In this document: positions 57,385 to 62,000 of the stretch, one piece after another
Layout: every line of letters starts with the position of its first letter
Position numbering within the stretch: position 1 is the first letter of the stretch
Source of the DNA: Arthrobacter sp. ES3-54
GTDB lineage: Bacteria > Actinomycetota > Actinomycetes > Actinomycetales > Micrococcaceae
DNA length: 64,000 nucleotides
Direction: 5' to 3'
Assembly: GCF_029504395.1 (NCBI RefSeq)
Contig: NZ_JAQFIF010000006.1
Span: 124,001 to 188,000, forward strand
The notes under the pieces: generated by a model
What the model saw: only the letters and a program-made list of their open reading frames with translations
Told to the model about the DNA's origin: nothing
The model's database searches: none
Made by a program: the position numbers and the translations under genes

Positions 57385-58218
57385 ATGGTGGGCAAGAAGA
57401 AGAAAAAGACCAAGAGCGCCGACGGACAGGACGAGCAGGCCGGCAAGAAGATGCCCCGCAAGAAGTACGAGGCGGAGATGGCCGTCCTGCAAGGTGAGCT
57501 GGTCGCCATGCAGGAGTGGGTCAAGGCCACCGGAGCCAAGGTCTGCATCGTCTTCGAGGGCCGGGACACGGCCGGCAAGGGTGGAACGATCAAGCGCATC
57601 GTCGAGAGGGTGAGCCCCCGGGTGTTCCGTGTGGTGGCTCTCCCCACCCCGACCGAGCGGGAGAAATCCCAGATGTACCTCCAGCGCTATATGTCGCACT
57701 TCCCGGCGGCCGGCGAGGTGGTCATCTTCGATCGCAGCTGGTACAACCGTGCGGGTGTGGAGCGCGTGATGAACTTCTGCACCCCGGAGGAGACCCAGAG
57801 GTTCCTCAACTTGGCCCCGATGGTTGAGAAGGCGATGGTCGACGCCGGAATCATCCTGATCAAGTACTGGCTCGAGGTCAGCGCTGACGAGCAGACCCGG
57901 CGGCTCAAGAGCCGCATGGATGATCCCCGCAAGACCTGGAAGTTGTCTCCGATGGATCTCAGGTCCTACAAACGGTGGTACGACTACTCCCGGGCCAGGG
58001 ACGCCATGTTCGAGGCGACCGACACCGCCTGGGCACCGTGGTACGTCGCGAACAACGACGTCAAGAAGCGCGGCCGGCTCAACATCATCAGCCACTTGCT
58101 AAGCCAGGTGCCCTACGAGCCGTTCCCGGGGCTCGACGTCGAACTCCCCAAGCGTCAGAAGTCCGACGACTACCGTGAACCCACGCTGGCTGTCCGGCAC
58201 ATCCCGACACCATTCTGA
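57385..58218 (+). CDS. ppk2: Polyphosphate kinase 2 (PPK2 family)
   Basis: The product has 277 residues. After a lysine-rich leader (VGKKKKKTKSADG) comes the PPK2 domain: Walker A FEGRDTAGKGGTIKR (56-70), Walker B and following arginines VVIFDRSWYNRAGVERVM, and the lid segment RLKSRMDDPRKTWKLSPMD. The enzyme transfers phosphate between polyphosphate and nucleoside mono/diphosphates; the single-domain form here fits class I (ADP or GDP plus polyP). An ideal GAGGAGG precedes the ATG. The P-type ATPase gene starts 28 bp after its stop, so they are almost certainly co-transcribed. Confidence 0.93.
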   Translation: MVGKKKKKTKSADGQDEQAGKKMPRKKYEAEMAVLQGELVAMQEWVKATGAKVCIVFEGRDTAGKGGTIKRIVERVSPRVFRVVALPTPTEREKSQMYLQRYMSHFPAAGEVVIFDRSWYNRAGVERVMNFCTPEETQRFLNLAPMVEKAMVDAGIILIKYWLEVSADEQTRRLKSRMDDPRKTWKLSPMDLRSYKRWYDYSRARDAMFEATDTAWAPWYVANNDVKKRGRLNIISHLLSQVPYEPFPGLDVELPKRQKSDDYREPTLAVRHIPTPF

Positions 58219-58246
58219 GCAGCGTCCCGGCGATGAGGAGGAAGTC

Positions 58247-61015
58247 ATGACCGACAATCCCGGAGCGGCAGCAGAGTTGGCTGCGACCGACGTGGACACG
58301 ACGTGGTACGCGCTGGCCCCCGCGGAGGTGGCGGCCGAGCTGCAGGTGGACCCGGCCAGCGGGTTGAGCGCGGCAGAGGCGGAGCAGCGGCTGCAGGAGT
58401 ACGGGCCGAATGCCCTGGCCGCCGCGAAGCCGGAACCGGCCTGGAAGCGGTTCTTCAAGCACTACCGGGACTACATGCAGATCGTGCTCGTGGTCGCCGC
58501 CCTGGTCAGCCTGCTGATCGAGGAGTACGGGACCGCCATCGGGCTCGCCTTGCTGACGCTGTTCAACGCGTGGTTGGGCTATCACCAGGAAGGCAAAGCC
58601 GAGGCGGCCGCCGCCTCCTTGGGGAAGATGATGAAGTCGATGGCGAAGGTGCGCCGCGACGGTGACATGGCGGAGATCCCCGCCGAGCAGCTTGTGCCGG
58701 GCGACATCGTGGTGGTCGATGCCGGTGACCGTGTCCCTGCCGACGGCAGGATCATCCTGGCGGCGACCCTCCAGATCGAGGAGGGCGCACTGACCGGCGA
58801 AAGCGTCGCCGTCGAAAAGGACACGGCGGCCATCAGCCGGCACGAGGTCGGTATCGGAGACCGCGTGAACATGGCGTTCATGAACACCAACGTGACCCGG
58901 GGCCACGGCGAGATCCTCGTGACCACCACCGGCATGGGGTCAGAGGTCGGCCACATCGCCCACATGCTGTCCGGCCAAAAGGAGGAGAAAACCCCCCTCA
59001 CCAAACAGGTGGACCGGCTCACGATTTTCATCATCATCGCGGCCCTCTTCGCGTTCGTCGCGATCGTGGTGATGGGCCTGGCACAGGGCGAGACTTTCGC
59101 GGTGCTCTTCGGGATCGGCGTGGCCCTGGCGGTCGGCTCGATCCCGGATGCGCTGCCCGCCGTCGTCACCACCATCCTGTCGGTGGGCTCGGTCAACATG
59201 GCCAAGAAGAACGCCATCATGAAGGTCCTGCCGGCGGTCGAGACGCTGGGTTCCACATCGGCCATCAATTCCGACAAGACCGGCACCTTGACCCTGAACC
59301 AGATGACGGTGCGGGAATTCGTGACTGTGCAGCACCACTACACGGTCAGCGGCGAGGGCTACAGCTTCAACGGCCAGATCCAACGGACCACCGGCGACGC
59401 CGAACGTGACCTGGACTACGTGATGTTCCCGTGCGCGCTGTGCAACGACTCCGATATCGAGGACGGCGAAGTGATCGGGGACCCCACCGAGGCGGCGCTG
59501 TACGTGCTCGCGCAGAAAGGCGGCGTGGACGTCCGGGAGTTCCGCAGGAACAATCCGCGGGTGGCGTCCGTGCCCTTTGACTCCGACTACAAGTTCATGG
59601 CCACCTTCCACCTGATGCCCGGTGCCGATGGCAGGCCCGTGATCCGGGCCTACGTGAAGGGCGCACCCGACGTCGTTCTCAACAGGTCCTCGTCCGGGCG
59701 GATGCCGGGCGGACGCACCGAGACCCTCACCGAGGAAATGCGGGGGAAAGTGCTGGCCGCGAACGAACGCATCGCCAGCCAAGGCCGGCGGGTGCTCGCC
59801 CTGGCGCAGCGCGAGTTCGACCCCAGGACGTTCCAACCGTCGGGCGATCTGATGGCGCTGATGCAGGACCTGGAAATTTCGGCGCTGATTGGCGAGGTAG
59901 ACCCGCCGCGCGCCGAGGCGGTGGCTGCCATCGCCAAGGCGAAACACGCCGGCATCCGGGTCCGGATGATCACCGGCGACCATGCCATCACCGCGGCGGC
60001 AATCGCGGACGAGTTGGGCATCCGCGGGCGCGCCGTCACCGGTGCCGAGTTCGCGGCCATGAGCGACTCCGAGGCCGACAGCCAGGTGGACGGGATCGGG
60101 GTGATCGCCCGGGTGGCGCCGGAGCACAAGGTCCGGCTGGTCGAGGTGCTCAAGCGCAAGGGCAACGTGGTCGCGATGACCGGCGACGGCGTGAACGACG
60201 CACCGGCCATCGCCGCGGCCGACATCGGGATCGCGATGGGCATCACGGGCACCGACGTCGCCAAGGGAGCGGCGAAGATGATCCTCGCCGACGACAACTT
60301 CGCCACCATAGTGACCGCTGTCGAGCAGGGCCGGCTCGTGTACGACAACCTGCAGAAGTTCATCCGCATCCAGGTGGCCAACCTGTTCATGTTCATCCTG
60401 GCCTTCATCGGCTCGTCGGCGTTCGCGATCGCAGGCACAGCGCTGCTCAGCCCGGCGCAGGTGCTGTGGATCCACATGGCGATCGTGGCCCCGATTGGGG
60501 CCGTGATGGGCCTGGACCTCGCGACGCCGGGCATCATGGACCGCAAGCCGCGGCCGTTCAACCAGCCCATCATCGTCCGGTCGATGATGGTGCGCCTGTT
60601 CGTGGTCGGGCTGTTCATGGCGGCCGCCACGCTGGTCCTTGTGCAGATCGGCAAGGCCAGCTACGGTTCCCTGGAGGTCGGGCAGACCATGGCCATAGTT
60701 GGCCTGGGGCTGATGAACATTGCGGTCGCGCTCAACCTGCGTTTCCCCGAGGAAAGCGCGTTCGGGCCTTCCACCCTGTCCAACCCGAAGCTGCTCTGGG
60801 CTTTCGCTTGGGCATTTGTCGGCTCGATGCTGATCACCCAGATACGCGTACTGCAGGAACTGTTCGGCACCCTCCCGCTCACCGGAGCGCAGTGGTTGAT
60901 CTGCTTAGTGCCGGCCGTGGTGCTGCTGCTTCTTGGCGAACTGTTCAAGCTGATCCTGCGGGCCGTGCACGCGGGCGAACAGGCCAAGATCCAGACTGCG
61001 TCCGTACCTGCCTGA
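58247..61015 (+). CDS. P-type ATPase, P2-like, with altered ion-binding motifs
   Basis: The product has 922 residues. An N-terminal cation-ATPase domain, actuator loop LTGESVAVEKD (TGES at 183-186), phosphorylation site NSDKTGTLTLNQMT (Asp343), KGAPDVVL and TGDGVNDAPA (645-653) show a complete catalytic machine like Ca2+ or Na+ pumps. The membrane motifs differ: M4 has PDALP (300-304) instead of PEGLP; M5 has FIRIQVANLFMFIL where SERCA has the NVGE ligands; M6 has WIHMAIVAPIGAVMG where SERCA has WVNLVTDG. The usual Ca2+ ligands are therefore missing, and the transported ion cannot be predicted. A GAGGAGG ribosome site precedes the ATG. The DUF1206 gene follows after 145 bp. Confidence 0.9.
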   Translation: MTDNPGAAAELAATDVDTTWYALAPAEVAAELQVDPASGLSAAEAEQRLQEYGPNALAAAKPEPAWKRFFKHYRDYMQIVLVVAALVSLLIEEYGTAIGLALLTLFNAWLGYHQEGKAEAAAASLGKMMKSMAKVRRDGDMAEIPAEQLVPGDIVVVDAGDRVPADGRIILAATLQIEEGALTGESVAVEKDTAAISRHEVGIGDRVNMAFMNTNVTRGHGEILVTTTGMGSEVGHIAHMLSGQKEEKTPLTKQVDRLTIFIIIAALFAFVAIVVMGLAQGETFAVLFGIGVALAVGSIPDALPAVVTTILSVGSVNMAKKNAIMKVLPAVETLGSTSAINSDKTGTLTLNQMTVREFVTVQHHYTVSGEGYSFNGQIQRTTGDAERDLDYVMFPCALCNDSDIEDGEVIGDPTEAALYVLAQKGGVDVREFRRNNPRVASVPFDSDYKFMATFHLMPGADGRPVIRAYVKGAPDVVLNRSSSGRMPGGRTETLTEEMRGKVLAANERIASQGRRVLALAQREFDPRTFQPSGDLMALMQDLEISALIGEVDPPRAEAVAAIAKAKHAGIRVRMITGDHAITAAAIADELGIRGRAVTGAEFAAMSDSEADSQVDGIGVIARVAPEHKVRLVEVLKRKGNVVAMTGDGVNDAPAIAAADIGIAMGITGTDVAKGAAKMILADDNFATIVTAVEQGRLVYDNLQKFIRIQVANLFMFILAFIGSSAFAIAGTALLSPAQVLWIHMAIVAPIGAVMGLDLATPGIMDRKPRPFNQPIIVRSMMVRLFVVGLFMAAATLVLVQIGKASYGSLEVGQTMAIVGLGLMNIAVALNLRFPEESAFGPSTLSNPKLLWAFAWAFVGSMLITQIRVLQELFGTLPLTGAQWLICLVPAVVLLLLGELFKLILRAVHAGEQAKIQTASVPA

Positions 61016-61160: not shown

Positions 61161-62000
61161 ATGGCAAAAGAAGACTCCGGGATCGAAGCCGCCCTCGGCG
61201 ACGCCGCCGACGCCGCCGAGGCGGCGTCGGACAGCATCTGGCTCGACGTCGTCGCACGTTCGGGGTTCGCCGTGATGGCACTTCTTCATATTGTGATCGG
61301 GGCCATCGCCGTCGCGCTGGTCCTGGGCGCGCCCGGCCAGGCCGAACCCACCGGCGCCATCGAACAACTCGCCGCCAACCCGTGGGGTCCGGCCGTGATG
61401 TGGGCGGCCTGCATCGCCTGCGCAGGGCTCTCGCTGTGGCAGCTGAGCGAAGCGACCCTCCGGGCCCGTCACCTTCCGCGCGGCGAGCAGCTGGGCAAAC
61501 TCGTTTCCTCCGGCTTCCTCGCCATTGCGTACGGGAGCGTCGGGCTGAGCTTCGCGGGCTTCGCACTCGGCCAGCGCGGCGATTCGGGCGACTCGACGCG
61601 GGACTTCAGTACCGCCCTGGTCCAGTCCCCGTTCGGGGCGCCGGCCCTGGTGGGCCTCGGGCTGACCATCATCGGGATCGGGGTGTACTTCATCGTCAAG
61701 GGCTTCGGAAAGAAGTTCAAGGAGGAACTGCACCACTTCGAAGGGACCCACCGCGGAAGGCTGATCAGCTTACTCGGAGTCACCGGCCACGCCGCGAAAG
61801 GGCTGGCGCTGATCCTTACCGGGCTGCTCTTCGTCATCGCCGCGGCAACCAACAACCCCGGTTCTTCCACCGGTCTGGACGGCAGCCTCAAGGCACTCCG
61901 GGACCACCCCTTCGGCCCGTACCTGCTCCTGGCGATCGGGGCAGGGTTCATCGCCTACGGCGTGTTCGCCCTGGTCCGGGCGCGCTTCGGCCGGATGTAG
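61161..62000 (+). CDS. DUF1206 membrane protein
   Basis: The product has 279 residues. Three repeats of a two-span unit typical of DUF1206: LDVVARSGFAVMALLHIVIGAIAVALVLG, LGKLVSSGFLAIAYGSVGLSFAGFALG and LISLLGVTGHAAKGLALILTGLLFVIAAA, each with a G-x-x-x-(K/R)-G-(L/I)-type start, and a final HPFGPYLLLAIGAGFIAYGVFALVRARF. Function unknown; the family is common in actinobacteria. I start at ATG 61161 (MAKEDSG), with no strong ribosome site; an ATG at 61140 is the alternative. Confidence 0.82.
   Translation: MAKEDSGIEAALGDAADAAEAASDSIWLDVVARSGFAVMALLHIVIGAIAVALVLGAPGQAEPTGAIEQLAANPWGPAVMWAACIACAGLSLWQLSEATLRARHLPRGEQLGKLVSSGFLAIAYGSVGLSFAGFALGQRGDSGDSTRDFSTALVQSPFGAPALVGLGLTIIGIGVYFIVKGFGKKFKEELHHFEGTHRGRLISLLGVTGHAAKGLALILTGLLFVIAAATNNPGSSTGLDGSLKALRDHPFGPYLLLAIGAGFIAYGVFALVRARFGRM

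Follow-up and report, generated by a model that had tools for sequence, protein, structure and literature searches.

The 64,000-nt stretch of Arthrobacter sp. ES3-54 analysed here (contig NZ_JAQFIF010000006.1, positions 124,001 to 188,000; hereafter the window) contains a gene for a PPK2 polyphosphate kinase and, directly behind it, a gene for a P2-type ATPase (Table 1). The coordinates and gene order given in a preliminary description of this DNA were confirmed, including the 28-bp distance between the genes, and the pump motifs TGES, DKTGT, TGDGVND, IPDALP and VLWIHMAIVAPIG were found exactly as quoted there. The short, terminator-free spacer is consistent with transcription of both genes as one unit. 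No sigma-70-like site was found in a promoter scan, which is a weak guide in this GC-rich genome.

Table 1. Features of the PPK2–pump locus (positions in the window)
Feature	Position	Strand	Remarks
PPK2 polyphosphate kinase, TIGR03707 type, 277 amino acids	57385..58218	+	open, complete reading frame; Walker A GRDTAGKGG and FDRSWYNRAG intact
Spacer between PPK2 and pump genes, 28 bp	58219..58246	+	no terminator-like site in scan
P2-type ATPase, 922 amino acids, SERCA/SPCA/LMCA1-like fold, divergent ion site	58247..61015	+	open, complete reading frame
M4 motif IPDALP	59141..59158	+	Asp301 aligns with LMCA1 Glu292 and SERCA Glu309
DKTGT phosphorylation motif, Asp343	59273..59287	+	
M5 RIQVANLFMF, with Leu713 and Phe716	60365..60394	+	from alignment
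M6 VLWIHMAIVAPIG	60461..60499	+	His743 aligns with LMCA1 Asn716, Val747 with LMCA1 residue 720

The window PPK2 exceeded the TIGR03707 cut-off (349.6 versus 301.8 bits), contained the Walker motifs and was matched by solved PPK2 structures from an E value of 5.6e-78. Enzymes of this family phosphorylate nucleotides (ADP, GDP) using polyphosphate. The kinase retains the catalytic motifs of P. aeruginosa-type PPK2s (TIGR03707; e.g. 5ll0 and 4yeg), but it is paired with a pump gene in a unit of two genes. The 4.77-Mb host genome contained four PPK2 matches at three places and no second pump close to that of the window; the other pump matches were fragments of at most 48 bits in genes with the M4 motifs ACPCAL and ACPHAL, which we take to be typical of heavy-metal pumps. 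For the pump, dN was 0.018–0.058 versus a dS of 0.22–0.55 (five Arthrobacter-type homologues), and for the kinase the values were 0.034–0.050 versus 0.26–0.40 (three PPK2s). As dN was low relative to dS, both genes are under purifying selection, which rules out a pseudogene reading.

The pump contains the complete P2 domain set (PF00690, PF00122, PF00702 and PF00689, plus DKTGT, TGES and TGDGxND) and belongs to the P-type ATPase superfamily (TIGR01494, 277.7 bits versus a cut-off of 62.3). The curated NCBIfam cut-offs placed the pump outside the known subfamilies for Ca2+, Na+, H+ and Mg2+. The best-scoring model was that of the PMR1/SPCA Ca2+/Mn2+ pumps (TIGR01522), yet the pump reached only 581.8 of the 798.3 bits required. 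It likewise fell below the cut-offs for SERCA (TIGR01116, 531.6 versus 703.4 bits), PMCA (TIGR01517, 409.5 versus 507.05), Na+/K+ and H+/K+ pumps (TIGR01106, 419.6 versus 946.1), fungal K+/Na+ pumps (TIGR01523, 450.6 versus 645.05), H+ pumps (TIGR01647, 387 versus 615.5) and Mg2+ pumps (TIGR01524, 363 versus 610.75). By sequence the best solved relatives were Listeria LMCA1, SPCA1 and SERCA. An AlphaFold model obtained with 41 aligned sequences (mean pLDDT 79.8, pTM 0.67) had helices that fit ten membrane segments, with M4 broken at residues 299–302. When this model was submitted to Foldseek, SPCA1 was the top match, and SPCA1, SERCA and LMCA1 were the nearest solved folds.

Relatives from outside the genus were the best 80 of at least 573 matches, which are not a random sample, plus loci from genome samples (loci and genomes are labelled L and G, respectively). 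A pump tree of 109 rows was built with the motif columns omitted, using a quick method without bootstrap that gave long-branch warnings; of 125 rows, 16 were removed, namely the partial L116, an unrelated second pump in L067 and rows nearly identical to others from Arthrobacter or methanogens. In this tree 86 rows, comprising pumps with IPTGLP (T-type), IPDALP (D-type), IPEALP, LPENLP and similar M4 motifs, formed one clade with 100% SH-aLRT support that excluded all 23 PEG-type pumps. The D-type and IPEALP branches grouped together at 89% support, which is not firm. The separate ATPase subfamily proposed in the preliminary description is thus borne out by a supported clade that lacks the standard ligand set and by the failure to pass any substrate-specific NCBIfam cut-off.

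The ion site was examined by alignment. We take Leu713 and Phe716 in M5 to stand at the positions of SERCA Asn768 and Glu771, and His743 and Val747 in M6 at those of Asn796 and Asp800. The side chains of P2A Ca2+ site II (Glu in M4, Asn and Asp in M6) are replaced by Asp301, His743 and Val747, leaving Asp301 and His743 as the only ionisable residues at the ion-site positions. LMCA1, a P2A Ca2+-ATPase (PDB 6zhf and 9euq), resembles the pump in fold and domain order (521 bits over residues 23–903) and itself has an IPEAL-type M4 motif where the window pump has IPDALP. Passages of PMC11977196 describe a single Ca2+ bound to LMCA1 between M4 and M6 by Asn716, residue 720, Glu292 and M4 carbonyls, with Arg795 occupying the place of site I; residue 720 is Asn720 in the text of that paper and Asp in the aligned LMCA1 sequence. 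The window pump has His743, Val747, Asp301 and Asn824, respectively, at the positions of Asn716, residue 720, Glu292 and Arg795. A curated family with identical M4–M6 residues was also looked for. No substrate-specific NCBIfam model was passed, the residues differed from those of LMCA1 on direct comparison, and the M4 motifs of the mycobacterial pumps, as given in passages of PMC3573892 (PEGL in CtpE, CtpF and CtpI, PEGM in CtpH), set this actinobacterial alkali/alkaline-earth group apart from the window pump, as none is PDAL or PEAL.

Of 125 aligned rows, 124 were classified, one unrelated pump being omitted. PEG-type rows had Glu in M4 and Asn in M6 without exception (23/23), and 19 of the 23 had Asp at position 747. 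All 25 D-type rows had Asp in M4 and His in M6, and their residue 747 was either Val (21) or Leu (4); L075 and L078 had an Asp at 746, and four rows had a His at 824. The M4 Glu was present in 30 of 30 IPEALP rows, 26 of which combined His with Asn747, and the 41 T-type rows had Thr in M4. Acidic M4 together with His required two changes on the pump tree. The earlier claim that all main Ca2+ ligands are changed was correct in that the ligand positions differ, but it was slightly too strong, as the M4 change from Glu to Asp is conservative. Similarly, the M5 motif NVGE is missing as claimed, but its absence alone is not distinctive, since the 23 PEG-type controls had Asn in only 14 and Glu in only 9 rows at the two positions. 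Leu713 together with His743 and Val747 is the more distinctive feature. From these data we conclude that the pump represents a distinct lineage that has lost the Ca2+-type ligand set, while the catalytic motifs are retained in both genes. Read from present-day residues, the branch would derive from a Ca2+-type pump with one site, in which the M6 Asn was later exchanged for His and the M6 Asp was lost.

Pairing of the two genes was strict within the genus. The pump (E ≤1e-200) and the PPK2 (E ≤1e-110) were each found in the same 18 of 150 genomes; neither gene was detected in the remaining 132, and at these thresholds no genome contained one gene alone. The genes were adjacent in 18 of 18 genomes, with 28–40 nt, stop codon counted, between the end of the PPK2 match and the start of the pump. 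Two genomes counted as present had imperfect genes: in G466 (L060/L178, 79% complete) both genes were split over several frames, just the PPK2 end lying inside the examined stretch of L060, and in G538 (L053) the pump gene contained a single in-frame TGA, which may reflect a sequencing error or a recent disruption. Sixteen Arthrobacter-type loci, window included, were also compared for their surroundings; the window is labelled L179, and L172 apparently duplicates the record of L066, so that the D-type group contains near-duplicates. In twelve of these loci the pair lies in a shared syntenic region, where it occupies one of two slots, either before an MFS–GntR gene pair (L061, L063, L170 and L171) or after it (L179, L064, L066, L070, L167, L168, L172 and L173). 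In L169 and L178 the pair follows a PucR gene, and the stretch showed no MFS–GntR; the flanks of L065 and L177 have nothing in common with those of the window. The PPK2–pump pair stays together across both slots.

Outside the genus, all 30 IPEALP rows had a PPK2 within 300 bp of the pump, versus none of the 23 standard PEG-type rows (Fisher p 1.6e-15, relatedness ignored). These controls came from 22 loci of the same phylum, 20 of them from the genome samples and 2 from the best matches, with flanks of up to 8 kb on each side, and PPK2 was absent throughout their stretches. The IPEALP partner lay upstream on the same strand in 26 cases, downstream on the same strand in three and divergently in one. 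Within 500 bp, PPK2 accompanied 15 of 24 D-type, 8 of 41 T-type, 0 of 3 LPEN and 0 of 2 other rows. In four Chloroflexota loci (L105, L114, L124 and L204) the PPK2 stands between a T-type pump and an IPEALP pump, so that one kinase has two different pumps beside it. Adjacency within 500 bp required eight changes on the pump tree, or six when the three T-type rows of this sandwich, L130 (weak PPK2 matches in two frames) and a PPK2 remnant in L065 were set aside; a pairs test for correlated traits yielded only two independent pairs, too few to be informative. Chance adjacency is ruled out by the co-occurrence and 18 of 18 adjacency in the genus, together with the contrast between IPEALP and PEG-type pumps.

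The partner kinases belong to two families. Ten pump-adjacent PPK2s were typed, seven beside IPEALP and three beside T-type pumps; two passed TIGR03707 (L099 and L111, as does the window) and eight passed TIGR03709 (L107, L138, L121, L105, L113, L091, L074 and L137). Purifying selection and strict co-occurrence in the genus are thus joined by the repeated occurrence of these pumps next to PPK2s from two families.

These results suggest that the two genes may form one functional module that couples ATP regeneration to cation transport through an altered site for use under stress, a reading to which we give about an even chance. PPK2 would pass phosphate from polyphosphate to ADP, regenerating ATP close to the membrane, and the ATPase would spend this ATP to carry a cation via Asp301 in M4 and His743 in M6 in place of the Glu/Asn/Asp set. 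Such pairing could keep the pump running once respiration or nutrients fail, when stored polyphosphate is the remaining energy. A shared transcript, the supply of ATP from PPK2 to the pump and a stress setting would all be parts of this arrangement. The probabilities given here and below are set as they are because of the co-occurrence in the genus and the contrast between 30 of 30 IPEALP and 0 of 23 PEG-type rows.

Several observations weigh against the module. Three methanogen loci with full flanks (L067, L068 and L116, the last with a partial pump match) had no PPK2 within 8 kb, indicating that this pump type can exist without an adjoining PPK2. Nine D-type rows lacked PPK2 within 500 bp: four methanogens, two Coprothermobacterota bins, two other actinobacterial bins and L177, although L177 is a late-starting match that a PPK2 in fact adjoins (L012, same genome). 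PPK2 occurred elsewhere in the methanogen genomes G563 and G564, and a whole-genome search found none in G565, G264 (89% complete) or G366 (82% complete); the absence is not firm at L069, L071, L078 and L164, whose contigs start inside the pump gene or within about 100 bases of where it begins. Only 8 of 41 IPTGLP pumps had PPK2 within 500 bp, three of them sharing it with an IPEALP pump. The Cryobacterium metagenome-assembled genome L065 carries an intact pump (85% identity) directly preceded by a remnant PPK2 (L065:234-710) without Walker motifs. Among 18 PPK2 loci sampled from the phylum (18 of 23 other PPK2 matches), with kinases 54–76% identical to that of the window, none had a pump of this clade in the stretch examined; PPK2s like that of the window are not dedicated to such pumps, and a PPK2 subfamily exclusive to the pump is ruled out within this sample. 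In addition, the ion specificity cannot be read from the pump sequence, and the non-genus loci were chosen as best-matching relatives rather than at random. The conservation of PPK2 adjacency in relatives, on which the preliminary description had made its functional link depend, therefore held in the genus and in the sampled IPEALP pumps but not in methanogens or most IPTGLP pumps. One of the sampled PPK2 loci, L248, contained a copper-type pump, judged by its M4 motif.

A possible, if tentative, alternative is that the two are simply co-regulated stress genes (starvation, anoxia or acid), placed in one operon for joint expression with no direct biochemical coupling. The occurrence of similar PPK2s away from such pumps favours this alternative, as do the surroundings of T-type pumps. 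Several T-type loci resemble stress islands, with DUF1269, DUF7144, SHOCT, DUF2252 and LuxR genes, and some hold arginine deiminase together with OTCase, as does one control locus; these neighbours fit a stress setting loosely. Arginine deiminase represents another ATP-yielding pathway. It was found in the flanks of ten loci (L073, L074, L086, L091, L095, L098, L102, L103, L122 and L139), namely six with T-type pumps only, one LPEN, one LPEN plus T-type, one IPEALP and one control (L139). As a marker of T-type pumps it was considered weak, since LPEN, IPEALP and control loci have matches too. Against mere co-regulation, the partner is specifically PPK2, drawn from two families and present at 30 of 30 IPEALP rows, whereas the next most constant IPEALP neighbour, a SulP-STAS sulfate permease, was found in the flanks of only 12 of 30, in most cases shortly after the pump gene (e.g. 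L162:10646-12478). No flank cluster was as constant as PPK2 in this comparison, in which 14 near-copy Arthrobacter loci were left out of the clustering. In the window, a DUF1206 membrane protein gene (61161-62000, same strand) lies 3' of the pump; other Arthrobacter loci have this gene close by, though not always adjoining the pump.

It is rather doubtful that the pump is an ordinary Ca2+/Mn2+ exporter, in which Asp301, His743 and the M4 carbonyls would make up an LMCA1/SPCA-like one-site pump of tuned affinity. LMCA1 and SPCA1 are nearest to it in both fold and sequence, and four IPEALP rows (L105, L113, L114 and L124) retain Glu, Asn and Asp together with the M8 Arg, i.e. the LMCA1 set. Moreover, LMCA1 binds Ca2+ in part through the backbone carbonyls of M4 together with side chains of M6, according to the passages of PMC11977196 cited above. 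However, the M6 Asn is His in 51 of 55 D-type and IPEALP rows, and none of these 51 has Asp at position 747, where Asn (26), Val (21) and Leu (4) occur instead; in the window pump, too, the M6 ligands of PMR1/SPCA are replaced. Protons, a monovalent ion or a soft divalent metal would each be compatible with the Asp/His residues, and for a non-Ca2+ ion we would place a proton or monovalent ion first and a soft divalent metal second. The full form of the module reading, a new P2-type branch that moves a non-Ca2+ cation via the Asp/His site and is locally energised from polyphosphate by PPK2 in dormant or starved cells, is somewhat unlikely as a whole.

The pump is sparsely distributed. Among the matches listed, the most similar loci were mostly from Arthrobacter, plus one Pseudarthrobacter and one Cryobacterium bin; the nearest to the Arthrobacter pump was that of Cryobacterium L065, the next nearest were methanogen proteins (67–71% identical; Methanospirillaceae, Methanoregulaceae and Methanobacteriaceae, L067, L068, L069, L071 and L116), and other actinobacterial relatives were at most 54% identical. 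Relatives on plasmid records were all below 60% identity. In a sample of 196 genomes from the phylum to which one of the relatives belongs, two carried the pump (E ≤1e-225), both already among the listed relatives. As the Arthrobacter pump is nearer to methanogen than to other actinobacterial pumps and is sparse in both groups, its distribution suggests cross-domain transfer. Neighbourhood by descent, in which the genes were joined once and spread by horizontal transfer with no functional meaning to their adjacency, would accord with this probable movement between lineages and with the clustering of the window PPK2 with PPK2s beside IPEALP pumps (in a tree with few non-adjacent PPK2s), but it is very improbable given the two PPK2 families, three arrangements, the Chloroflexota sandwich, the six to eight adjacency changes and a pair kept together in two slots.

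P-type ATPases are normally considered to use the general ATP pool. Full-text searches of open-licence PMC papers turned up none that, judged by title and abstract opening, describes a PPK2 and P-type ATPase pair. Recurrence of the pump in two bacterial phyla beside a kinase from either of two families suggests that a particular transport step may run on polyphosphate. The pair would offer a system for testing the purpose of bacterial polyphosphate stores, built around a pump subfamily that is distinct from the curated substrate-specific families.

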